Assembly (NCBI RefSeq): GCF_027946175.1
Contig: NZ_AP026671.1
Coordinates: forward strand, 1,674,001-1,738,000
Direction: 5' to 3'
Source: Nitratiruptor tergarcus DSM 16512
GTDB lineage: Bacteria > Campylobacterota > Campylobacteria > Campylobacterales > Nitratiruptoraceae
Length of the DNA: 64,000 bases
Shown: piece after piece, positions 1-31,660 of the stretch
Numbering within the stretch: position 1 is the first letter of the stretch
Layout of the letters: every line of letters begins with the position of its first letter
The notes under the pieces: generated by a model
What the model was told of the DNA's origin: nothing
What the model saw: only the letters and a program-made list of their open reading frames with translations
The model's database searches: none
Program-made: the position numbers and the translations under genes

Positions 1-1269
1 AAAGATGAGTATATTAAGATTGTAGAAGAGGCTCTTAAAGCTGGAGAAGATGGAAAAGATAGAACGGAAGAGGAAGAATATTACAAACCTTGGTGGACAC
101 CAGAAGTGGCTGTGATTGTTGCAGACTCTAAATTTAGACGAAACAAAGGAAGCGAATATCGCAAAGCATTCCTCAAGAAAACGAAATTCTTCGCATATGT
201 TGACTATAAAATGAGCGAAGCAGCGATGTTTGCTGATGTTTTACTTCCAGCAAAAAGTCACTATGAAGTGTATGATATTAGAACAAGCCCAGGATACCAT
301 CGCTTTACTAACCTTGCACAACCACTTGCTAACATGAAGCCAGTTGGTGAAGCGAAAGATGAATGGAGTATGTTTGCATTCCTAGCAAAAAAACTAGAAG
401 AAATAGCAAACAGACCCGAAAACAAGAAAAAAGCAAAAGTCCCAGATAGCAAAAAGTATGCAAGAACTGGATATAGAGATCTAGCAAACTTCTATAAAGA
501 GTATACTAATACTGACGAAGAGTCTGAAGCGGCGATGGAGCCATATTTGGGAACAGATAAACTTGCCGTACAAGCAGCACTCGAAAAATGTGAGCAGTAT
601 GCACCTTGGACAATGGAGAAGATGTATCAAGCAGGTGGTTTCTTACAGCTTAATGAAAAAGCTGCAAAGTTGAGTCCACTCTATGCAGATAGACCATACA
701 ATTCTGGTGAGTTTACGCTCTTTAAACTTGAGCCGTTTGAAACATTAACAGGAAGACAAACGTTCTATATAGATCATCCAACATATTTAAAACTAGTCAA
801 TGGTACAAACTATGCTCTTAAACCACTTGCGCCGCAAAGCAAGAAAAACCCATTTATGCTCATGACACCGCATGCAAGATGGTCAATACATTCTAACTGG
901 AAAAATAGTAGAACATTGCAGCGTCTACAACGTGGGGTGCCATATGTTGCAGTGAATAGAAAGATTGCCCAGATGAAAGGTATCAAAGATGGTGATACCA
1001 TCAGAATCTTCAACGAGCTTGGTGAATTTTATGCTATGGCAAAAGTGAGCTCTTCTGTAGCTCCGGATACTCTTGTTATGGAACATGGTTGGGAGCCATA
1101 TCAATACCTCTTTAATAAAGGGCACAATGAGGTAGTTCCAATGTCACTCAACCTTCTTGAATTAGCAGATGGTTGGGGACACCTCAAATTTGGTGGTCTT
1201 TGGGATGGTAACCAGTATGCCTATGATGGGGCAGTTGATATTGAAAAATCTACGAAGTTTACATATTAA
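1..1269 (+). CDS. Type II DMSO reductase family molybdoenzyme, alpha subunit (C-terminal part)
   Basis: The reading frame is open from the first base of the window, so this is the last 422 residues of a larger catalytic subunit whose start lies outside. The sequence around residues 40-100 (KFFAYVDYKMSEAAMFADVL, then the ADVLLP motif) is typical of molybdopterin oxidoreductases. The C-terminal third carries the molydopterin-dinucleotide binding fold (GDTIRIFNELGEF). The following NarH-like beta and heme-b-type gamma subunits place it in the NarG/SerA/ClrA/PcrA/EbdA/DdhA group. The residues that decide the substrate (Mo ligand, N-terminal cluster) are upstream of the window, so nitrate, chlorate, selenate or an organic substrate cannot be told apart. 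A beta-subunit gene follows after 12 bp. Confidence 0.85.
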   Translation, partial: KDEYIKIVEEALKAGEDGKDRTEEEEYYKPWWTPEVAVIVADSKFRRNKGSEYRKAFLKKTKFFAYVDYKMSEAAMFADVLLPAKSHYEVYDIRTSPGYHRFTNLAQPLANMKPVGEAKDEWSMFAFLAKKLEEIANRPENKKKAKVPDSKKYARTGYRDLANFYKEYTNTDEESEAAMEPYLGTDKLAVQAALEKCEQYAPWTMEKMYQAGGFLQLNEKAAKLSPLYADRPYNSGEFTLFKLEPFETLTGRQTFYIDHPTYLKLVNGTNYALKPLAPQSKKNPFMLMTPHARWSIHSNWKNSRTLQRLQRGVPYVAVNRKIAQMKGIKDGDTIRIFNELGEFYAMAKVSSSVAPDTLVMEHGWEPYQYLFNKGHNEVVPMSLNLLELADGWGHLKFGGLWDGNQYAYDGAVDIEKSTKFTY

Positions 1270-1281
1270 TAGGAGCGTGGC

Positions 1282-2409
1282 ATGTCTAAAAGACAACTAG
1301 CAATGGTAATGGATCTGAATAAATGTATCGGATGCCAAACCTGTACAGTCGCATGTAAAACACAATGGACCAATAGAAATGGTCGTGAATATATGTACTG
1401 GAATAATGTTGAAACATATCCAGGCGATGGATATCCAAAAAAATGGATGGAGCTTGGTGGTGGTTTTGATGCTGCAGGCGATCTCCAGCCTGGCATCATT
1501 CCAAATATTGAAGCAGATTATGGTGTGCCTTGGGATTACAACTATGAGTCACTTGCAGAACAAAACTTATTGAGTGATAAACCAGAGCCTGGTTTTAGAC
1601 CAGATCAAAGTCCAACATGGGGACCAAACTGGGATGAAGATGAGGGAGCAGGTAACTTCCCAATGGACAATTACTTCTTCTATCTTCCACGGATTTGTAA
1701 CCACTGTTCAAATCCAGGATGTCTTAGCGCTTGTCCAAGAGATGCAATTTTTAAACGAGAAGAGGATGGTGTAGTTTTAGTGGATCTTGATAGATGTCAG
1801 GGATACCGCTACTGTATCGCGGGATGTCCATATAAAAAGATCTATTTCAATCCAAAAATCTCTAAGAGTGAAAAGTGTATTCTCTGTTTCCCAAGAATTG
1901 AGCAGGGACTCCCGCCAGCCTGTGCACAGAGCTGTGTTGGTCGTATTCGATTCGTAGGCTTTTTGGATGATGAAGAGAGTCAAGTTTATAAATTGGTACA
2001 TAAATATAAAGTTGCATTGCCACTCAGACCAGATTACGGCACACAGCCAAATGTTTACTATGTACCGCCAACAGAAGCGCCACCAAAATTTGATGAAAAT
2101 GGTAAAATTATTGAAGGCAGCAACAGGATTCCTATTGAAGAGCTAGAAAAACTCTTTGGACCAGCAGTACATGATGCTATTAAAACAATCAAAGCTGAGC
2201 GTGAAAAACGTAAAAAGACTGGGAAATCAGAGCTTATGGATATATTGATTGCATATCAGCATCAAGATATGTTTAGACTCGACCATAATTACTATGTAGA
2301 AGTTGCGAAGAAGAAAGGTATGAAGCCACTGCCACTTGTTGATGAGAGATATGTGGCTGGAAAACATACAAAACCATCTTCAATATCTCATTTTAAGGTG
2401 CACGCATGA
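1282..2409 (+). CDS. Iron-sulfur beta subunit of the type II DMSO reductase family enzyme
   Basis: A 375-residue NarH/SerB-like electron-transfer subunit. It begins with a ferredoxin motif at Cys15-Cys18-Cys21-Cys25 and has further clusters in the middle (CNHCSNPGCLSACP, then CQGYRYCIAGCPYKK, then CILCFPRIEQGLPPACAQSC). In the CQGYRYC motif an aromatic residue replaces a cysteine, as in this family where one cluster is [3Fe-4S]; the expected set is three [4Fe-4S] and one [3Fe-4S]. There is no signal peptide; in this family the beta subunit is exported together with a Tat-bearing alpha subunit. A Shine-Dalgarno-like AGGAG precedes the ATG. The stop overlaps the gamma gene start by 4 bp, so the two are translationally coupled. 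Confidence 0.9.
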   Translation: MSKRQLAMVMDLNKCIGCQTCTVACKTQWTNRNGREYMYWNNVETYPGDGYPKKWMELGGGFDAAGDLQPGIIPNIEADYGVPWDYNYESLAEQNLLSDKPEPGFRPDQSPTWGPNWDEDEGAGNFPMDNYFFYLPRICNHCSNPGCLSACPRDAIFKREEDGVVLVDLDRCQGYRYCIAGCPYKKIYFNPKISKSEKCILCFPRIEQGLPPACAQSCVGRIRFVGFLDDEESQVYKLVHKYKVALPLRPDYGTQPNVYYVPPTEAPPKFDENGKIIEGSNRIPIEELEKLFGPAVHDAIKTIKAEREKRKKTGKSELMDILIAYQHQDMFRLDHNYYVEVAKKKGMKPLPLVDERYVAGKHTKPSSISHFKVHA

Positions 2410-3623
2410 GAAGAGTAATAACATTTACAGCAGCCCTCAGCTTGGCTGCAGTAACGGCAATGGCTGGAAATGTGGTAACCGCTGTTAAGGTTAAGAGTTT
2501 GAAAAATCTCCAATGTGGTGCAAAATTGGTACGTAAACATGCAAAATTTGTGCCTGTAACACTCTATCCACAAACTACTGTCAAACTTAATGATAAAAAG
2601 GCACTTGAGCTTAATAAAGATGCAAAAGCAAAAGTGGCTGAAGTAGCTGCATTTACTGATGGAAAAAATGTAGCAATCATTATGCGCTGGCCAGATAAGA
2701 GTAAAGATGTTTACAAAGGCTACGAAAGCGACAGCTATCCAGATGGATTTGCTGTACAATTTGCAGCAGATGCAAGCAACCCTCAAAAGCTTCCGTATAT
2801 AGGTATGGGAAGTGATGGCAGACCTGTTGAGATTTTCATTAGAAAAGCTTATGGACAAGGAGTATATGAGCCAAATGGCAATGGAGATGTTGCACATCAA
2901 GTAAATGAGCACAATACCAATTATTTTGGAAAAGGACTCAAAAAATTTAAAAAAGAGGTGAAAAAACTTGGAGTACTTCCATATCAAAGAGCCTTTGTGA
3001 GCGAAGGTTTTCGCAGTATGACGGAAATCAAAGATGGAAGTGTTAACTACCGCACTGATATGCATTACGTCAATAAAAAAGGTGGAATGTGGGGTGGAAT
3101 GGTTGTGAAGCCTCTCAAAGATGCTTATGCAGCACCAAGTAAGAATGAGTTAGCTGTTGCTGTGGCAGCGTGGGACGGAAAAGAGCTGCAAAGAGATGGT
3201 CTCAAAAGACTCTCTAGCTGGATTGCCGTCAAACTTCCTGGAGCAAAAAATAAGGCTTTAGAAGCAGTTGTAACAGAAAAAGCCAAAGGTGATGTTGCTA
3301 ACGGAAAGAAAGAGTTTGAGACTAATTGTGCAAGCTGTCACCGTGACAGAAATTTCCAAAATGCTCCTCTTTACATGGCACCAGGTCTTGAAAATATAGG
3401 TGGGCAGACTACTGCTGCATATATTAGAGAATCGATTCTTGATCCAAATGCGGTTGTGGTTCCTGGATATAACAGAAATGCTCATCCAAACTTTGCGTGG
3501 TATACAGTGGATGACAAAGGTAACAGAACTTCAACTATGCCACCATTCAACTATCTTGATAAAAAAGTTGTAGAAGATATCGTGGCATATCTGCAGACAC
3601 AAAAAGCGGAGGTTGCAAAATGA
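2406..3623 (+). CDS. Heme-binding gamma subunit (EbdC/SerC-like) with C-terminal cytochrome c domain
   Basis: A 405-residue exported protein with a Sec signal peptide (about residues 1-20, ending AMAG). The middle part resembles the ethylbenzene-dehydrogenase-type heme b gamma subunit (MRWPDKSK, YPDGFAVQFA, GMGSDGRPVEIF). From about residue 295 it continues into a monoheme cytochrome c with CASCH near residue 308 and a Met-containing TSTMPPF segment as a possible distal ligand. Stand-alone gamma subunits of selenate or chlorate reductases are around 200-240 residues, so the cytochrome is an added domain. It could pass electrons between the heme b and a periplasmic or membrane partner, which would explain why no NarI-like quinol subunit is visible. 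It overlaps its neighbours by 4 bp on both sides. Confidence 0.8.
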   Translation: MRRVITFTAALSLAAVTAMAGNVVTAVKVKSLKNLQCGAKLVRKHAKFVPVTLYPQTTVKLNDKKALELNKDAKAKVAEVAAFTDGKNVAIIMRWPDKSKDVYKGYESDSYPDGFAVQFAADASNPQKLPYIGMGSDGRPVEIFIRKAYGQGVYEPNGNGDVAHQVNEHNTNYFGKGLKKFKKEVKKLGVLPYQRAFVSEGFRSMTEIKDGSVNYRTDMHYVNKKGGMWGGMVVKPLKDAYAAPSKNELAVAVAAWDGKELQRDGLKRLSSWIAVKLPGAKNKALEAVVTEKAKGDVANGKKEFETNCASCHRDRNFQNAPLYMAPGLENIGGQTTAAYIRESILDPNAVVVPGYNRNAHPNFAWYTVDDKGNRTSTMPPFNYLDKKVVEDIVAYLQTQKAEVAK

Positions 3624-11321: not shown

Positions 11322-11335
11322 TTGATATGTATCAA
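11322..11335 (+). promoter_or_regulatory. Fnr-type box, perfect palindrome, with -10 at class II distance
   Basis: TTGATATGTATCAA is a perfect TTGAT-N4-ATCAA site. TATAAT at 11358-11363 starts 29.5 bp from its centre, which puts the box at about -41.5. It should activate the DUF2249/NnrS-like/MIP18/DUF1858 operon. Confidence 0.85.
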
Positions 11336-11396
11336 TGACATTCCAGTGACACACCATTATAATTAGGAGTAAATTTATCTTAATTAGGAGGTTGCT

Positions 11397-11744
11397 ATGG
11401 AAGTTATTCCACAGGATGCACAAAAGGTCGAAGTTGAAGGAGCAACGGTAGATTTTTATAAATTTCAAAAGGATGGTGTTACTTACTACGCTTTTGATAC
11501 ATCACGATGTGGTCCTCCTGAACCTATGGTCAATGCAATGGCAGGACTCAAACTCATTACTTCACCAGATGTGAAACTCATAATGATTAATCACAAAATG
11601 CCTATGGGGCTTTTGAATAAGATTGAAGAAAACTTCAATATAGAAAAAGAGAATCTCGATGATGGAAGAGTGAAACTGGTTTTTAGTTATAAGCCAGGAG
11701 CGAGTGAAAAAGCAGATCTTGCAGATAGCGCCTGTCACGGTTAA
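11397..11744 (+). CDS. DUF2249-like protein, first gene of an Fnr-box operon
   Basis: A 115-residue cytoplasmic protein. The spacing of a TSRCGPPEPMVNAMAGL motif near residue 38, then a hydrophobic strand, then HKMPMGLLNKIEENF matches the pattern of DUF2249 domains (an acidic start, a PPEP-type turn, and a P-x-x-L-L helix). It also has a C-terminal Cys-His (ACHG). DUF2249 domains often occur near nitrogen-oxide and hemerythrin genes, but their biochemistry is poorly known. A strong AGGAGG Shine-Dalgarno precedes the ATG, and an Fnr-type box lies about 60 bp upstream. Confidence 0.65.
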   Translation: MEVIPQDAQKVEVEGATVDFYKFQKDGVTYYAFDTSRCGPPEPMVNAMAGLKLITSPDVKLIMINHKMPMGLLNKIEENFNIEKENLDDGRVKLVFSYKPGASEKADLADSACHG

Positions 11745-11758
11745 AAAGGAGGGGGAGG

Positions 11759-13006
11759 GTGTTTAATATTTCCAAAGATTTTGCGCCACCATTTTCATTA
11801 ATATCACCATTTTTCGTTGCTGGTGTTGTCTTCTATCTACTAGCAACTGTGGCGTTGCTATTTTACGGGGTAGATTTCTCCTACATGCAGCCTCAAATTG
11901 CTGGATGGGTACATCTCTTTTTGCTTGGCTATGTAATGATGATAATTTTTGGGGCAATGGCGCAGCTTATTCCAGTAGTTTTAGAGACAGGACACTTTAG
12001 TGTAGATTGGTACTATCTTATCTTTCCACTGCTATTAGTAGGTGTTGTTGGATTAGTAATAGGTTTTTGGCTAGATCCTTTATGGCTCAGTTTTGGTGGC
12101 ATATTTGTACTCATTGCAATGATTATTTTTGCAATTGATGTATTTTTGACGGTAAAAAAGAGTAGTATTGATACCTTTGTGCTTAAAGCTGTGAAATATT
12201 CCAATATCTTTTTACTCCTAGGAATTTTGAGCGGGTTTTTGATGGCTTTGACACTTAGTGGATTTATGGGAGTCGATATTGCACAGGTACTTAAACTCCA
12301 TGTTTTTGCTGTTGTTGGAGGGTATGTACTCCTTACAATTTATGGCATTAGTCTTGTATTGCTTCCTATGTTTGGTTTAGCCCACGGTTTTGATGAAAAA
12401 CCTGTACACAAAGCACTCTGGCTTATGGTGGCTGCAGTTGGATCTATTTTTATAGCAGTTTTGTTTGATTGGCAAATTTTTGCATATATGAGCTATATCT
12501 TTGCTCTTCTCTCAGTCGCACTCTATTTTTATCAGGTTTTTCTCATCTACAAAACACGTGTACGCAAAGAGCTTGATATATGGTATCGCTCTATGCTCTT
12601 TGGGTATGCAAGCTTTATGCTCGCTACAATTTTAGGAGTGCTCTATCTTTTGAGTGGACTCCAAAGTAGCCATCTCTTATATGGAATGTTTTGGTTTTTG
12701 TTTGTTTTTTTCATTTTTCTCATAAATGGGCATTTGTATAAAATAGTTCCGTTTTTAGTCTGGTTTCATAGATTTAGCGATCTCGTAGGCAAGCAAAAGG
12801 TACCAATGCTCCATGAGATGTATCCAAAAAAGCAGGCTGATTATCAGTTCTTTTTTACTGCTCTTGGAACTTTGTTTGTTGGTGTTGGATTGATAGCAAA
12901 TAATGTGCAGTTATTCCATGCAGGTGGGAGCTTTATGGTAGCTGGAGCTCTCTTTTTAGTTACAAGCCTTCGATGGATGTTACAGTTTAGGAGTACACAT
13001 GGCTAA
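11759..13006 (+). CDS. Polytopic membrane protein, NnrS / heme-copper-oxidase-subunit-I-like
   Basis: A 415-residue protein with about 12 membrane helices. Histidines sit at the edges of or inside helices in places reminiscent of NnrS or short subunit-I-like proteins: GWVHLFLLGYVMMIIFGAMA, VLKLHVFAVVGGYVLL, INGHLYKIVPFLVWFHRF. NnrS is a heme and copper membrane protein tied to NO stress; the assignment here rests on topology, histidine positions and neighbours, not on an alignment. The start is a GTG after a long purine-rich GGAGGGGGAGGG Shine-Dalgarno. It overlaps the MIP18 gene by 8 bp. Confidence 0.6.
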   Translation: MFNISKDFAPPFSLISPFFVAGVVFYLLATVALLFYGVDFSYMQPQIAGWVHLFLLGYVMMIIFGAMAQLIPVVLETGHFSVDWYYLIFPLLLVGVVGLVIGFWLDPLWLSFGGIFVLIAMIIFAIDVFLTVKKSSIDTFVLKAVKYSNIFLLLGILSGFLMALTLSGFMGVDIAQVLKLHVFAVVGGYVLLTIYGISLVLLPMFGLAHGFDEKPVHKALWLMVAAVGSIFIAVLFDWQIFAYMSYIFALLSVALYFYQVFLIYKTRVRKELDIWYRSMLFGYASFMLATILGVLYLLSGLQSSHLLYGMFWFLFVFFIFLINGHLYKIVPFLVWFHRFSDLVGKQKVPMLHEMYPKKQADYQFFFTALGTLFVGVGLIANNVQLFHAGGSFMVAGALFLVTSLRWMLQFRSTHG

Positions 13007-13307
13007 GGTGACAAAAGAGCAAGTCTATGATGCGATACGCACTGTTATAGATCCCGAAGTGGGATTTAATCTTGTGGATCTTGGACTTATCTATGATGTA
13101 GATATCGATGAAGAGAATAATGTACATGTAAAAATGACACTCTCCACACGGGGATGTCCACTGCATCAGATGATGCAGCAGTGGGTGAAGGAGGCGGTAG
13201 AGCGCATACCTGATGTAAAAAGTGTAGAGGTAGAGATTGTTTGGGATCCACCTTGGAATATCTCTATGGCGAGTGATGTTGTGAAAAAAGCGCTGGGGGC
13301 GAAGTGA
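12999..13307 (+). CDS. MIP18/DUF59-family Fe-S assembly protein (PaaD/SufT-like)
   Basis: A 102-residue protein with the family hallmarks DPEVGFNLVDLGLIYDV near residue 18, LSTRGCPL near residue 48 with the conserved cysteine, and VWDPPW near residue 86. Members help to assemble or deliver iron-sulfur clusters. In an operon with an NnrS-like protein and a DUF1858 (ScdA_N-like) protein, repair of clusters damaged by NO is a reasonable inference. It overlaps both neighbours by a few bases. Confidence 0.85.
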   Translation: MAKVTKEQVYDAIRTVIDPEVGFNLVDLGLIYDVDIDEENNVHVKMTLSTRGCPLHQMMQQWVKEAVERIPDVKSVEVEIVWDPPWNISMASDVVKKALGAK

Positions 13308-13531
13308 GAGAGCTGCAAAGCTTTCTGCGCCACTTCTATGGCGCAGGGATTCTGTTTTTTTACTATATGAAGTGGCCTATAGTATTAGGTCTGCCAGTAC
13401 TCTACTTTTATCTTGGTTATCCAAGATATTGGCTACTCGATTTGCTGTGGCTCTACTGCCTTGGACTTATAATCAAAGATATTGTTGTGGTTGTTTTACG
13501 CTGGAAGAGAGGAGAGAAGATATGGAGATAA
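13304..13531 (+). CDS. Small two-helix membrane protein, unknown
   Basis: A 75-residue protein starting with GTG, whose start overlaps the MIP18 stop codon. It has two hydrophobic helices (about residues 24-40 and 43-64) and a basic C-terminus (RWKRGEKIWR). I do not recognise it. Tight overlap on both sides (4 and 10 bp) supports that it is translated. Confidence 0.6.
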   Translation: MRELQSFLRHFYGAGILFFYYMKWPIVLGLPVLYFYLGYPRYWLLDLLWLYCLGLIIKDIVVVVLRWKRGEKIWR

Positions 13532-14019
13532 CACTCGATACAAAAATTTATGATTTACTTCAAGAGTATCCATTTTTAGAAGAGGAACTCATAAAAATCA
13601 ATCCAAAATTTAAAAAGCTCAAAAATCCCATTTTGCGTAGAACTGTTGCAAGAGTAGCTTCAATCAAACAAGCAGCAGCTGTAGGTGGTATGGATGCGGT
13701 AGAGCTGCTCAATGCATTGCGCAAGCGGGTGGGGCAAGAGCCAGTAGAAGTGGAAGTTACAAAAGAGCAAGAGAGTGCTCCTAGTTGGATTGCGCAAGAG
13801 CCAAAAGCTATTTTGGATGCAAATGAGCTTTTAGATAGTGGCAAAAACCCTTTGGCTGAGATGAGTAAACTTTTAAAAACGTTGCAAGAAGGTGATATTA
13901 TTTTGCTTAAATCCGATTTTAAACCAGAGCCCTTGATTGAGGAGATGCGCAAAAAAGGTATTGCAGTCTTCTCCCAGCAAGTGGGAGAGAGTGAGTTTTT
14001 TACTTATTTGAAGAAATAG
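13522..14019 (+). CDS. DUF1858 plus DUF2249-like protein
   Basis: A 165-residue protein starting at the ATG at 13522. Residues 1-70 match the DUF1858/ScdA_N pattern (LDTKIYDLLQEYPFLEEELI, then NPILRRTVARVASIKQAA). Residues about 95-165 look like a second DUF2249 domain (LDANELLDSGKNPLAEM, then LKSDFKPEPLIEEMRKKG). ScdA_N is the N-terminal domain of the RIC di-iron cluster repair proteins. The operon therefore contains two DUF2249-like domains. It converges on the FmdE-like gene with a 20-bp overlap. Confidence 0.65.
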   Translation: MEITLDTKIYDLLQEYPFLEEELIKINPKFKKLKNPILRRTVARVASIKQAAAVGGMDAVELLNALRKRVGQEPVEVEVTKEQESAPSWIAQEPKAILDANELLDSGKNPLAEMSKLLKTLQEGDIILLKSDFKPEPLIEEMRKKGIAVFSQQVGESEFFTYLKK

Positions 14020-14611
14020 TAAGAACTCTGTTCCAATTCTCTTTGTTAAGTAAAATCTTCTCAACACGCTCTTGCCAAAGGGACTGGAACATCTTTTTCT
14101 CCTCTATACCTGCTTTCCCCATTATAAGTAGTTGCATAAGCTCTTTCATTTTTGGATTTGGCGGCACACTTGATGGATCGTAAGCTAGATCTACATACTC
14201 CCCGTTATCTACTCGCTCAAGTCTTACTTGCCCTGATATCGGAGCATCATAAAAAAGTTTATTGCTTCTATTAAATCTGCCCCCTATACCCTTAAAGCCT
14301 GCTTCATCGCTTACACCGCAAATGTAGGCAATGGTATTACCGATGACCCCATTAACCTCTGCATCCTTTTTCCCTTTGACTAAAACTTTTATTTCACCTC
14401 TGTGGGGCATTGCATCAGGAAAGAGTTTTTCAAGCCCAAGTTTTGCCATAAGGTATGCACCTGCGACAGTAGGGCAAGAGTGACCAGCAAATTTCACCAC
14501 ATCTAAATAGGTGATCTCTATAACGCCAGATTCTATTGCACCAAGAAAATCTGCAAGAGGATCATAGAGCATTATCGATTCCACACGGTCAAAAAACTCT
14601 GGATATGTCAT
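14000..14611 (-). CDS. FmdE-like domain protein
   Basis: About 203 residues, starting at the ATG at 14611, which has AAAGGAT upstream. The signature KFAGHSCPTVAGAYLMAKLG is that of the FmdE domain, found in formylmethanofuran dehydrogenase subunit E and in many bacterial proteins of unknown role. The conserved Cys/His could bind a metal. The C-terminal zinc ribbon of archaeal FmdE is not present. An Fnr-type box with a well-spaced -10 lies upstream on this strand, which ties it to the denitrification genes. Function unknown. Confidence 0.65.
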   Translation of the reverse strand: MTYPEFFDRVESIMLYDPLADFLGAIESGVIEITYLDVVKFAGHSCPTVAGAYLMAKLGLEKLFPDAMPHRGEIKVLVKGKKDAEVNGVIGNTIAYICGVSDEAGFKGIGGRFNRSNKLFYDAPISGQVRLERVDNGEYVDLAYDPSSVPPNPKMKELMQLLIMGKAGIEEKKMFQSLWQERVEKILLNKENWNRVLTISSNK

Positions 14612-14665
14612 AAGGATCCTTTGTTTAAAATTTTTTAATGATAACAAAAAATGATTCAAAAAAAG

Positions 14666-21626: not shown

Positions 21627-22163
21627 ATGGATACTCGTTGGGATATGTTTATAGAAACAGAAGTACCACAAGATGAGCTTATCATCTCGCGCACCGATCT
21701 CAAAGGTATTATTACGTACGCCAATGAGACTTTTGCGCGCATTAGCGGATATAGACCAGAGGAGTTAATTGGAAAACCTCATAATATTTTAAGACACCCC
21801 GATATGCCAAAATCTGTCTTTAAAGATCTATGGGAGACAATCAAAGCAGAGAAAATTTGGAAAGGCTATGTGAAGAATCTTCGCAAAGACAGGGGCTATT
21901 ATTGGGTATATGCCGAAATTAGCGGAGTTTATAAAGATGGAAAGCTTGTCGAGTATAAATCGATGCGCAGTTGGATACCTAAAGATAAAAGAATCGAAAT
22001 GCAAAATCTCTATGACAAAATGCGTCTAGAAGAGGGGATTAATATTCGAGCAGTGAGCTATTTAGATGGTAAAACGTACCAAAATCTTCTTGATAAGAGT
22101 CAAAAGGCAGGAGTAACGCCAGAAAAACTTATCGCTAATTTAATCAATGAAGTAGAAAATTGA
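21627..22163 (+). CDS. Aer/CetB-like PAS domain sensor
   Basis: A 178-residue protein that is essentially one PAS domain (GIITYANETFARISGYRPEEL, then NILRHPDMP and GYYWVYAEISG) with a short helical tail. The RHPDMP signature is that of Aer/CetB-type flavin-binding PAS domains. It has no kinase, HAMP or methyl-accepting part, so it needs a partner such as a CetA-like receptor. It sits 8 bp after napD and so is likely co-transcribed with nitrate reductase. Its stop codon lies inside the Fnr box of the porin gene. Confidence 0.8.
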   Translation: MDTRWDMFIETEVPQDELIISRTDLKGIITYANETFARISGYRPEELIGKPHNILRHPDMPKSVFKDLWETIKAEKIWKGYVKNLRKDRGYYWVYAEISGVYKDGKLVEYKSMRSWIPKDKRIEMQNLYDKMRLEEGINIRAVSYLDGKTYQNLLDKSQKAGVTPEKLIANLINEVEN

Positions 22164-23530: not shown

Positions 23531-23603
23531 TTCTCCCTTCGGGGAGAATAGAGAGCAGCACATTTTGCCAGTTTCATCCCCTCCCTTGTGCTGCTCTCTA
23601 TTC
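23531..23603. terminator. Two nested hairpins between porin and Crp/Fnr genes
   Basis: First, TTCTCCC-TTCG-GGGAGAA (23531-23547), a very stable UUCG-type hairpin directly after the porin stop. Second, a 17-bp perfect inverted repeat, GAATAGAGAGCAGCACA at 23546-23562 and its complement at 23587-23603, which includes the last codons of the convergent regulator gene. No long T run follows on either strand, so this may also act as an mRNA 3' stabiliser. Confidence 0.6.
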
Positions 23604-24236
23604 AAAAAAAGAACGAAGTCCCTCTTTGTTTGCTACTATGTATTGATTCCTCTCTTTTTGTAAAATCTTTGCTTTTTTAAATTTTGAGATGATACGTGAA
23701 AGAGTTTCAGGCGTGATATTAAGTAGTGTTGCTATTTCATTTTTCTTTAAGTTCATGAACTCATATTCATGCTCATAGATAAATTTTGCTACTCTCGCAG
23801 TAGAACTGAGTACTAAATCGTTAGTAATAACATGCTCCAAATAGCGGATTTTATTTGTGAGTGATTTGATAATAGTAAAAGCTACTTCGGGATCTTTTAA
23901 AAATTCATTTTCAAAAATATTGTAATCAATGAGAATAACTTTCCCATCTGTGAGAAATTCACCAGTTGCAGGATAGGGCATTTTTTCGAAATTGACCACT
24001 TCGGCTATAAGATTTGGAGGGTAAAAGACATGCAAAACAATCTTATTTCCTTTATGATCTGTTTTGTAAATTTGCAATATACCTTTTGTTAGTATCATTA
24101 AATGATTAGTAATCTCTCCCTCATAAAAAGCAATAGAGCCTTTTTTGAACTCTTTTGTCTTAGAAATCTCTTGAAGCCTCTGGAGCTGCTTCGGTGGTAA
24201 GTTATCGAAGAGGTAAAAGTTTTTAATTGTTTCCAT
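23598..24236 (-). CDS. Crp/Fnr-family regulator, DNR/NNR-like, probable master of the denitrification genes
   Basis: A 212-residue regulator with a cyclic-nucleotide-binding-like sensory fold (residues about 8-120), a dimerisation helix and a winged helix-turn-helix. The recognition helix TPETLSRIISKF has E-x-x-S-R, the residues by which Fnr reads TTGAT half sites. There is no cysteine anywhere, so it cannot hold the Fnr [4Fe-4S] cluster. Known cysteine-poor relatives (DNR, NNR) respond to NO, in DNR through heme. It is divergent from the nor operon and lies among nine matching boxes. The Shine-Dalgarno is weak, and a TATAAT on the minus strand (24276-24271) could be its own constitutive -10. 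Confidence 0.85.
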   Translation of the reverse strand: METIKNFYLFDNLPPKQLQRLQEISKTKEFKKGSIAFYEGEITNHLMILTKGILQIYKTDHKGNKIVLHVFYPPNLIAEVVNFEKMPYPATGEFLTDGKVILIDYNIFENEFLKDPEVAFTIIKSLTNKIRYLEHVITNDLVLSSTARVAKFIYEHEYEFMNLKKNEIATLLNITPETLSRIISKFKKAKILQKERNQYIVANKEGLRSFFE

Positions 24237-28873: not shown

Positions 28874-29541
28874 TAGAATATGAAAAGAGTCTTTTTTTCC
28901 CTTTTTTTTATTGGACTACTACATGCTGATGTGCTCATTCATGAGTTAGAAGCAAAATCCTCGCAAAAAAGCGGTTATGATATCTATTATAAATATTGCT
29001 CCATGTGTCACGGAAAGCAGAGAGAGGGTATCTCTGCTCCTCCCCTTTTACCATCTTTTATAAAGCGTATGAGTGATGAGAGATTGCGAGATATTATCAA
29101 AAACTCTCTCCCGCAAACACTCATGCCAAAATTCGATTTTTTAAGTGATGGAGAGGTTGCAAAAATTATCGCATATCTTCGATCTCCAGCGAAAAATATA
29201 CGTTGGACAAAAGAAGATATTAAAAAAAGTAAAGTAGCATTTAACAATCCTAAAAAAAACCTCGGCATCAAAAATATTGAGAATATAACACTAGTAGTGG
29301 AGCGTGGAGCAAACCGTGTGTGGGTAATGGAAAATGAGAAGGTTTTAGATAGATTCTCCTTTGTGAATGTGCATGGAGGATTAAAATATACGCTTGATGG
29401 AAAAAACTTTTATGTGCCTACGAGAGATGGGTGGATAGGTCACTATAGTCTTGAGCATGGAAGAGTAGAGCATAAAATCAGAGCCTGTGTTAATCTACGC
29501 AATATCTCTTTGAGTCGTGATGGAAAATACCTCTTTGCTAC

Positions 29542-30637
29542 TGCATAAGTTCAAACACATATGGCACTCCGAGAGGGAGAGTGAGGAGTGCAAATCAAAT
29601 ACACGTTGCCAGGGCTCAAAGGATATAAAAGATTAGAGAGGATATACTACAATTCGCTTATGATAAGCGAAGAGGCAAAAAGAAGAAAAAAGATATTGGA
29701 GTTTTGGGAAAAATATGGACTAGCAGCAACAACTGAAGCTTTTGGAGTAAGCAGAAGAACACTCTTTCGATGGAAAAAGAGTTTAAATGATGCAAATGGC
29801 GATATCAAAGCCTTAAATCCAAAATCACGAAGACCAAAAAGAGTAAGAGAGTCAAAAGTACCAAGAGAAGTTATTAATGAGATAAAAAGATTAAGAAAAG
29901 AGTATCCCAACATCGGCAAAGCAAAACTCTACCACCTGCTTAAACCTTTTTGTGAAGAAAAAGAACTTAAAACTCCCTCGGAATCCACAATAGGAAGAAT
30001 AATCGCAAAAGCACCAGATACAATGAGACTTTTTCCCTACCGCATCGATACAAAAGGAAAAGTGAAACCAAAAAAGAAGACACAAAAAAACAGAAAACCA
30101 AAAAACCTCAAATCTAAACCATTTGAACTCTGGGCAGTCGATACCATCCAAATAGTATCAAACGGTATAAAACGATATATCCTTACTATGATTGACCCAC
30201 TCACACGTATTGCATTCGCAGTAGCAATTCCATCTAAAAGAGCAAAACATACTGCATATGCTCTTGAAGCTTTAATTGATGGAATAACCTCCATCAAACA
30301 AAAACGTAAACTTGCAATTCTTTCAGATAATGGCAGTGAATTTAAAAAAGAGTTTGATGCTCTGCTTGAACAAAAAGGCTTTACACACTACTGGACATAT
30401 CCAAGGAGCCCTAAAATGAATGCACACAATGAAAGATTCAATAGAACAATTCAAGAACAATTTATTCAATACTATGAAGATTTACTCTTTACAGATTTGG
30501 ATGAATTCAATAAAAAATTAGCAAAATGGCTCATCGATTACAATACCAAAATACCACACTCTTCTCTTAATTTTAAATCTCCGGTACAATACCTTCTTGA
30601 AAATCATTATGAGTGCCATATGTATTGGACTTATACA
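29542..30637 (+). mobile_element. Insertion sequence (IS481/IS3-like, rve transposase), 1096 bp, with 5-bp target duplication
   Basis: The ends are imperfect inverted repeats: left end TGCATAAGTTCAAACACATA continuing into TGGCACTC, and the reverse complement of the right end TGTATAAGTCCAATACATAT continuing into GGCACTC. Both begin with TG, as in IS3/IS481-type elements. The element is flanked by direct GCTAC copies at 29537-29541 and 30638-30642. Inside is one transposase frame in the same orientation as the interrupted gene. Clean ends and an intact host frame point to a recent insertion. Confidence 0.9.
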
Positions 30638-31660
30638 GCTACTTGCCTGCTCCCACAAATGGTAGTAGTATTCGATAGAGCAAACTTGGTTCCTGTGAAA
30701 ACCCAAAAAGTTCAAGGCAAAATAAGTGCGCTCTATGAGCTTTATAGCAAAGATGAAGCAGTTTTTACGCTGCGCAACAAACCTGAACTCTATAGAGTAG
30801 ATACGAAAACATTAGAGTTTAAAAAATTTCCACTTGATAAACCGATTGAAGATTTTTTTATTGATCCTTTTGAAGAGTATATAATTGGCACTACGCGCCA
30901 CGGAAAAGATCTGCGTGTCTATGAGATAGATTCTCTCAAAGAGGTGTTTCACGCTCCAATGGAAGGGATGCCACATCTTTTTAGTGCAACTTACTGGTAT
31001 AAAGATGGAAAATTCTATTTTGCGACACCACATTTGCGAAGGCCTTTTATCACTGTATGGCAGATGTATGATTGGAAACTTGTGAAAAAAATTGATGTAG
31101 GAGGAGATGGATTTTTTGTCAAAACCCATCCTATGAGCGATTTTTTATGGGTAGATAATGGTAGCGATGAGCTTGTGTTAGTGGATAAAAGCTCGTTTGC
31201 TCTCAAAAAAATCGTTCCACGCAAAGGTAAACGCTATATTCATACAGAGTTTAGTGGAGATGGCAAATACGCATATTTGAGTATTTATGAGAGCGATGGG
31301 GATCTTTTAGTATGGCAGACAGATACATTTAAAGAGCTCAAAGACTACTCTGCAAATGTACCTGTAGGAAAGTATAACTTTATTAATAAAAACAGGAAAT
31401 TTTACCCGAGACTTTTTGGTCTATCTCTCTTTAAAGAGAAGTGTTGGGGATGCCATCATCAAACGGCTATGGCTTTTGGCCCTCCTTTTGCAGCAATTGC
31501 AAAAAAGCGGACACGGGATGAGATGATCGCGCAAATTCTTGATCCAAAAAATATGTATAAGCATTTGGGATACAAGAGAAACTCTATGCCAGCATTTAAG
31601 CTCTCTCCTAAAGAGTTGCAAAGTATAACTGATTATATTATGAGTTTTAAGGATAAGTAG
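29588..31660 (+). CDS. DDE (rve) transposase reading through into the NirN-like C-terminus
   Basis: Starting at GTG 29588 (or ATG 29659) the frame encodes an N-terminal helix-turn-helix (TTEAFGVSRRTLFRWKKSLN) and an integrase core with the DDE triad: AVDTIQ, LSDNGSEF and ERFNRTIQEQ. The transposase proper ends around residue 350 (SPVQYLLENH). No stop codon lies between there and the right end of the element, so the frame passes through the inverted repeat and the target duplication. It continues in phase with the second half of the nirN-like gene to its TAG, giving a 690-residue fusion. The fused part carries d1-propeller blades and CWGCHH but would lack a signal peptide. nirJ starts at a GTG overlapping this stop. 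Confidence 0.85.
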   Translation: MQIKYTLPGLKGYKRLERIYYNSLMISEEAKRRKKILEFWEKYGLAATTEAFGVSRRTLFRWKKSLNDANGDIKALNPKSRRPKRVRESKVPREVINEIKRLRKEYPNIGKAKLYHLLKPFCEEKELKTPSESTIGRIIAKAPDTMRLFPYRIDTKGKVKPKKKTQKNRKPKNLKSKPFELWAVDTIQIVSNGIKRYILTMIDPLTRIAFAVAIPSKRAKHTAYALEALIDGITSIKQKRKLAILSDNGSEFKKEFDALLEQKGFTHYWTYPRSPKMNAHNERFNRTIQEQFIQYYEDLLFTDLDEFNKKLAKWLIDYNTKIPHSSLNFKSPVQYLLENHYECHMYWTYTATCLLPQMVVVFDRANLVPVKTQKVQGKISALYELYSKDEAVFTLRNKPELYRVDTKTLEFKKFPLDKPIEDFFIDPFEEYIIGTTRHGKDLRVYEIDSLKEVFHAPMEGMPHLFSATYWYKDGKFYFATPHLRRPFITVWQMYDWKLVKKIDVGGDGFFVKTHPMSDFLWVDNGSDELVLVDKSSFALKKIVPRKGKRYIHTEFSGDGKYAYLSIYESDGDLLVWQTDTFKELKDYSANVPVGKYNFINKNRKFYPRLFGLSLFKEKCWGCHHQTAMAFGPPFAAIAKKRTRDEMIAQILDPKNMYKHLGYKRNSMPAFKLSPKELQSITDYIMSFKDK

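Follow-up and report, generated by a model that had tools for sequence, protein, structure and literature searches.

An operon encoding DUF2249, oxidase-fold and MIP18 proteins beside the denitrification genes of Nitratiruptor tergarcus

Gene organisation of the operon

Here we describe five genes, designated g1 to g5, on a 64,000-nucleotide stretch of the Nitratiruptor tergarcus DSM 16512 genome (contig NZ_AP026671.1, positions 1,674,001 to 1,738,000), referred to in its full length as the window. The genes lie on the forward strand a short way upstream of napA, inside an island that continues after napA with nap genes, a Crp-Fnr regulator, norCB, nirS, nirJ/nirF, nosZ and nos accessory genes (names assigned partly by reading the translations). 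The first gene, g1 (11397-11744), encodes a small cytosolic protein, probably of DUF2249 type (PPEPM subtype) and with a putatively TusA/SirA-like core. It is followed by g2 (11759-13006, GTG start), encoding a 12-helix protein with the fold of heme-copper oxidases and nitric oxide (NO) reductases but without their binuclear site, and by g3 (12999-13307), encoding a MIP18-family iron-sulfur (Fe-S) cluster assembly factor similar to SufT and PaaD. The lineage-specific g4 (13304-13531) codes for 75 residues with two predicted membrane segments, and g5 (13522-14019) for a DUF1858-DUF2249 protein of 165 amino acids from the ATG at 13522. An earlier reading of the bare sequence (the original prediction) had placed five open reading frames here, and all are present; the tight overlap it described exists at three of the four junctions (8, 4 and 10 bp) and not between g1 and g2, which are spaced by 14 bp. 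This gene set, an accessory of denitrification, has received little study. Its proposed link to nitrogen oxides is very probable, given its place in the nap-nor-nir-nos island, a conserved promoter, co-occurrence with nosZ and cNOR, and copies beside nor and nirK or nar genes.

The membrane protein g2 has an oxidase fold without the binuclear site

The AlphaFold2 model of g2, built from 29 sequences (mean predicted local distance difference test score, pLDDT, 93.6; predicted template modelling score 0.92), contains 12 transmembrane helices, as the original prediction had it. The match of the model to heme-copper oxidases and NO reductases spans the full chain (root-mean-square deviation 3.0-3.5 over 375-387 residues), with Z scores of 34.0 to cbb3 CcoN and 32.2 to cNOR and a Foldseek E value of 2.8e-7, and the COX1 profile recognises 9 of the 29 g2 orthologues (best E 3.4e-7). 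All significant PDB matches are oxidases or NO reductases, although the missing of other folds from this list proves nothing by itself; the clear, unrelated transporter family that had been named as speaking against a nitrogen-oxide role is not among them. The family scans gave no Pfam or NCBIfam match for g2. When its profile was run against the sequences of the PDB, only a chance match came back, and the same profile found nothing significant against NorB and the two NnrS proteins of the genome (one run with poor settings). The histidine pair of helix 7 and the HxH motif of helix 10, which belong to the six conserved histidines of oxidase and NO-reductase catalytic subunits and are both present in the NorB of the window, are missing from the g2 family alignment, and g2 therefore lacks a binuclear site.

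Two histidines are instead shared by all 23 aligned sequences, which represent four phyla: His52 in helix 2 (codon 11912-11914, forward strand) and His181 in helix 6 (codon 12299-12301, forward strand). Both are kept in the two groups of Campylobacterota homologues (A and B) and in those of Thermus, rhizobia, Paracoccus, Cupriavidus and haloarchaea. In a profile alignment of sub-significant score, His52 aligns with the helix-2 ligand of the low-spin heme of NorB. The other most conserved positions of g2 lie at the ends of helices 2, 6 and 10, which, judging from the orientation of the oxidase fold, would face the cytoplasm; this end includes Q69, K328, W335 and the loop 343-354.

The suggestion that g2 has histidines in NnrS-like places was not borne out. 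Neither g2 nor its 29-member family matches PF05940, and two genuine NnrS genes are found elsewhere in the genome (263 and 207 bits). The NnrS protein at locus L031 carries His61, His314 and His336, whose placement in helices was read from sequence, not from a model; the second conserved histidine, on helix 6 in g2, comes late in NnrS. NnrS resembles g2 as a membrane protein of similar size in an NO context, but coexists with it as separate genes. Thus g2 belongs to a family neighbouring NnrS, with a heme-copper oxidase fold.

Pei et al. (2014, Protein Sci 23:1220; cited in PMC11218638) reportedly defined "heme-copper oxidase homology" (HCOH) proteins, of which the three-unit type is said to have 12 helices, an oxidase fold, two conserved histidines and a genomic link to denitrification and DUF2249 genes. 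By this description, g2 fits the three-unit type in all these respects, since it has the full oxidase fold, no binuclear-site histidines and two invariant histidines. To the description the present analysis adds the fixed order of DUF2249, HCOH and MIP18 genes and their promoter.

Conservation of the g1-g2-g3 triad

Homologues of g2 were found in 125 of the 298 genomes of the class and fall into two groups. Among the 109 group A loci read, some being one genome met twice, the gene next to g2 is g1 on the upstream side in 107 cases and g3 on the downstream side in 103; the triad is adjacent and co-oriented in 103. The family of the window and a few others have g4 and g5 in addition, and the conserved unit is therefore the triad and not the five-gene order of the original prediction. 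In raw counts, 78 of the 88 nosZ-bearing genomes have the triad, compared with 28 of the 210 that lack nosZ (odds ratio 51); for cNOR-bearing genomes the figure is 38 of 43. Its neighbours include heme d1 biosynthesis, nap, nor and nirS genes; in loci of the Sulfurovum type it stands between the heme d1 genes and nap, and a crp gene adjoins many copies. Two lone g2 homologues (L049 and L072, 36-37% identity) have no g1 or g3 neighbours.

The same combination recurs outside the Campylobacterota, where HCOH proteins of Thermus, rhizobia, Paracoccus and haloarchaea reach 119-213 bits with the profile of the g2 family. Plasmids of Ensifer and Rhizobium etli carry the order norECBQD-hemN-DUF2249-HCOH-DUF2249-MIP18-NnrS-nirK-Crp/Fnr regulator, a Paracoccus alcaliphilus plasmid carries HCOH-DUF2249-MIP18-Crp/Fnr, and pTHTHE1601 of Thermus thermophilus carries nar-DrpA-DrpB-short COX1-like protein-protoglobin-HCOH-MIP18. 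In a haloarchaeon, the HCOH gene and three DUF2249 genes lie beside nirK without MIP18. The short Thermus protein, encoded with the protoglobin between drpB and the HCOH gene (L169, 7521-7955), has 144 residues, matches COX1 and looks like a single-unit, four-helix oxidase homologue. In T. thermophilus HB8 (NC_006462, 123797-124189), only the last 131 residues of HCOH are matched beside an annotated MIP18 gene, as if this cassette had decayed.

The N. tergarcus genome carries a second cassette, of group B, with the order hemerythrin-DUF2249-HCOH (L073, region of C1:157844-158863). This cassette is conserved in other Campylobacterota, a hemerythrin gene lying beside 18 of the 20 group B genes examined, and Cupriavidus pHG1 has hemerythrin-HCOH-Crp near NnrS and nosZ, without DUF2249. 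One distant group B HCOH protein of another genome (G278, C19:11147-12013) also scores slightly over the NnrS cut-off (31.6 bits) and is a possible bridge between the HCOH and NnrS families.

Promoter and regulator

Upstream of g1 lies a perfect TTGAT-N4-ATCAA palindrome, TTGATATGTATCAA (11322-11335, no strand assigned), of the Nss/Dnr type of Crp-Fnr boxes, and 22 bp past it a perfect -10 hexamer TATAAT (11358-11363, forward strand), the centre of the box being about 41 bp ahead of the predicted transcription start. The original prediction had ranked this as the best Fnr-type box of the window; the palindrome is indeed perfect, but it ties with three other perfect boxes, at 22160, 34733 and 46708. 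These are located upstream of a porin gene, upstream of nosZ and between divergent cysG-N-like and nirDL-like genes, respectively. The box is conserved ahead of g1 in 86 of 102 orthologous regions (57 perfect, 29 with one mismatch), against 10 of 109 regions ahead of g2 and 0 of 104 ahead of g3 with at most one mismatch, which exceeds chance. The spacing to a TATAAT-like hexamer is exactly 22 bp in 75 of 87 loci. With a box near -41.5 and a -10 hexamer relative to the predicted start, the layout is, on sequence grounds, that of a class II Crp-Fnr promoter. The same motif stands 48-49 bases ahead of the transcription start at denitrification genes of Nitrosophilus labii, from a sister genus, a position that the box of g1 matches; regulators similar to Wolinella NssA and NssB were described there as well (PMC11539149). 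Encoded at 23598-24236, the Crp-family protein of the window contains no cysteine and is therefore not an Fe-S FNR; the regulator of the operon is probably a Dnr/Nss-type Crp-Fnr protein.

Family assignments of the partner proteins

Matches to DUF2249 (PF10006) were seen in both g1 (14.1 bits) and g5 (20.6 bits), as had been claimed, yet both fall below the Pfam cut-off of 29.5, which a paralogue of the same genome also misses (25.9 bits). DUF2249 is related to TusA and scores above the cut-off in Ensifer, and the g1 profile links to DrpB and to rhizobial DUF2249 proteins. The best structural match of the g1 model (pLDDT 88.6) is the SirA-like 3hz7, with Z 7.4 over 71 residues, a range in which likeness can be a common arrangement. 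In several g1 orthologues the cysteine of the TusA CPxP motif is replaced, while PPEP is largely kept; because this catalytic cysteine is not conserved, the role of a sulfur carrier with the TusA mechanism was rejected for g1.

The predicted cluster-assembly factor is a clear MIP18 protein, with g3 reaching 76.8 bits for FeS_assembly_P/MIP18 (PF01883, cut-off 23.5); it stays below the curated cut-offs of the SufT type (TIGR02945, 108.4 against 143.4 bits; TIGR03406, 101.3 against 202.6). Pfam and NCBIfam yielded no family for g4, whose orthologues in other Campylobacterota stand after g3 or near nap. The part of g5 taken for ScdA_N is actually DUF1858 (71.2 bits, above the cut-off), and the family scan found neither ScdA_N nor hemerythrin domains in g1 to g5. 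Residues 6-165 of g5 align with residues 13-176 of Thermus DrpB (30% identity, E 3e-27). The g1 profile fits best, if weakly (17 bits), on the C-terminus of DrpB and has only remote likeness to DrpA. Given the g5 homology and this C-terminal match, the pair of g5 and g1 resembles a DrpB divided over two genes.

Other features of the window

An FmdE-like gene (14000-14659, reverse strand; PF02663, 28.3 bits, cut-off 22.9) converges on g1-g5. It is a recurrent neighbour in many loci, and in some other families it is co-directional with the triad; whether it is a member of the module is uncertain. At the left edge, which cuts it, the window carries a molybdopterin enzyme with an Fe-S subunit and an ethylbenzene-dehydrogenase-type heme subunit (106-3623), in which EB_dh is fused to Cytochrom_C, followed by a TorD-like gene. 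A NirN-like cytochrome c/d1 gene (28880-31660) is interrupted by an insertion sequence: the first half stops at position 94 of the d1 profile, and the second resumes in frame at 96, after the transposase within the open reading frame 29588-31660. A remnant of a related transposase adjoins the NnrS gene at L031 (2772-2954).

Discussion

We tentatively favour, at somewhat less than even confidence for the full statement, a reading of the operon as an accessory to nitrogen-oxide respiration, with a heme-bearing membrane protein that anchors the protection, repair or maturation of metal centres. A Dnr/Nss-type Crp-Fnr regulator would turn the operon on, and g2 would bind a single heme toward the periplasm, with His52 and His181 on either side of it. 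This heme may meet NO or shift its redox state, and the strongly conserved cytoplasmic end of g2 would dock the TusA-like DUF2249 proteins and the MIP18 factor. These cytosolic partners may then keep or restore Fe-S or other metal centres of enzymes that are damaged by nitrogen-oxide respiration or needed for it. The core consists of g1, the oxidase-fold g2, which has lost the catalytic site, and g3, with g4 and the DrpB-like g5 as a lineage addition.

Several points weigh against this proposal. Neither biochemistry nor mutants of g1-g3 were found, for any organism, in the literature searched, which was mostly non-subscription, and Thermus DrpA and DrpB were interpreted as nitrate sensors, not as repair proteins (PMC6282519). 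The co-occurrence counts with nosZ and cNOR are uncorrected for phylogeny, and the triad also occurs in 23 genomes without either gene; among these, NapA is above the cut-off in 21 and hybrid-cluster protein in 18, and the NirS of the window found no match in a search without an independent positive control.

The related systems offer partial likenesses. COG4309 (DUF2249) belongs to NnrR and NsrR regulons together with norB (PMC1274295), and four DUF2249 genes are induced in denitrifying Haloferax (PMC11218638). Thermus drpAB, published as a bicistronic nitrate sensor (PMC6282519), resembles the operon in its DUF2249 proteins beside nitrate-respiration genes, in the homology of DrpB to g5, and in the HCOH and MIP18 genes on pTHTHE1601. 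DrpB, however, joins DUF1858 to two DUF2249 units, whereas g5 has DUF1858 and one unit with g1 as a separate gene, and Thermus has the protoglobin and the short COX1-like protein where the window has g4. The catalytic subunits of NO reductase and cbb3 oxidase share the whole-length fold with g2 (Z 30-34), which unlike them has neither a CuB/FeB site nor the heme ligands of helix 10. RIC (YtfE/ScdA) resembles the proposed module in the idea of metal-centre repair at the time of NO exposure and in the hemerythrin partner of the second cassette, but its ScdA_N and hemerythrin architecture differs from g1-g5, with DUF1858 in g5. The statement that no function is described for the combination thus holds, within the literature searched, for the whole cassette and not for its parts, COG4309/DUF2249 in NO regulons, DrpA/DrpB and HCOH proteins having been described; new within that literature are the fixed triad with its promoter, the spread over phyla and the link of g1 and g5 to DrpB.

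A role in signal transduction, in which the DUF2249 proteins sense nitrate or NO and modulate Crp-Fnr regulators with g2 as a membrane sensor, is in our opinion rather unlikely. The crp genes adjoining many copies and the homology of g5 to DrpB over about 160 residues argue for it, but the five proteins have no output or DNA-binding domain, their constant partner is an Fe-S assembly factor, and the cassette lies by nor and nirK in Rhizobium etli, which to our knowledge does not respire nitrate. The drpAB data themselves point in two directions, since the deletion makes nar and dnr expression independent of nitrate, which suits a sensor, while the same paper reports a maturation defect, NarG being made in double mutants with little nitrate reductase activity (PMC6282519). 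This inactive NarG and the place of the triad in loci of the Sulfurovum type, flanked by heme d1 genes and nap, would also suit a set dedicated to the maturation or assembly of one denitrification enzyme, be it nitrate, nitrite or NO reductase, or of the heme d1 cofactor. We consider such a dedicated set unlikely, as some genomes have the cassette but no match to NirS, nosZ or cNOR (the NirS search lacking a positive control) and the enzyme sets beside it differ from phylum to phylum, so that no single client fits. A role in heme d1 biosynthesis and nothing else was rejected on account of the triad-bearing genomes without a NirS match, with the same missing control.

That g2 is itself an enzyme, an NO reductase or a NorB relative handling NO or N2O, accords with its fold (Z 32 to cNOR) but is very improbable, as it has neither the helix-7 histidine pair nor the helix-10 HxH of the window NorB. 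Equally improbable is a transporter of heme, copper, sulfur species or a nitrogen compound whose cargo the other proteins handle: the 12 helices and the nearby metal- and sulfur-handling proteins would allow it, but the significant structural matches are to oxidases and the conserved residues are heme-ligand-like.

The protection and repair reading can be extended to a bolder, on balance improbable model for bacteria and haloarchaea alike, in which a dead oxidase-fold protein, with a heme between helices 2 and 6 in a pore that is empty in oxidases, would signal NO or the redox state to a cytosolic TusA-like/MIP18 machinery for the restoration of metal clusters, Thermus DrpA/DrpB being one part of it. 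DUF2249 proteins have been noted beside NO genes since 2005 with no function, and their constant partnership with an oxidase-fold protein and an Fe-S factor turns this into a concrete hypothesis that can be tested. The partnership is kept across several phyla and suggests a re-reading of the Thermus DrpA/DrpB data. It also provides a natural experiment on how an oxidase fold can be put to new use once the reaction centre is gone.

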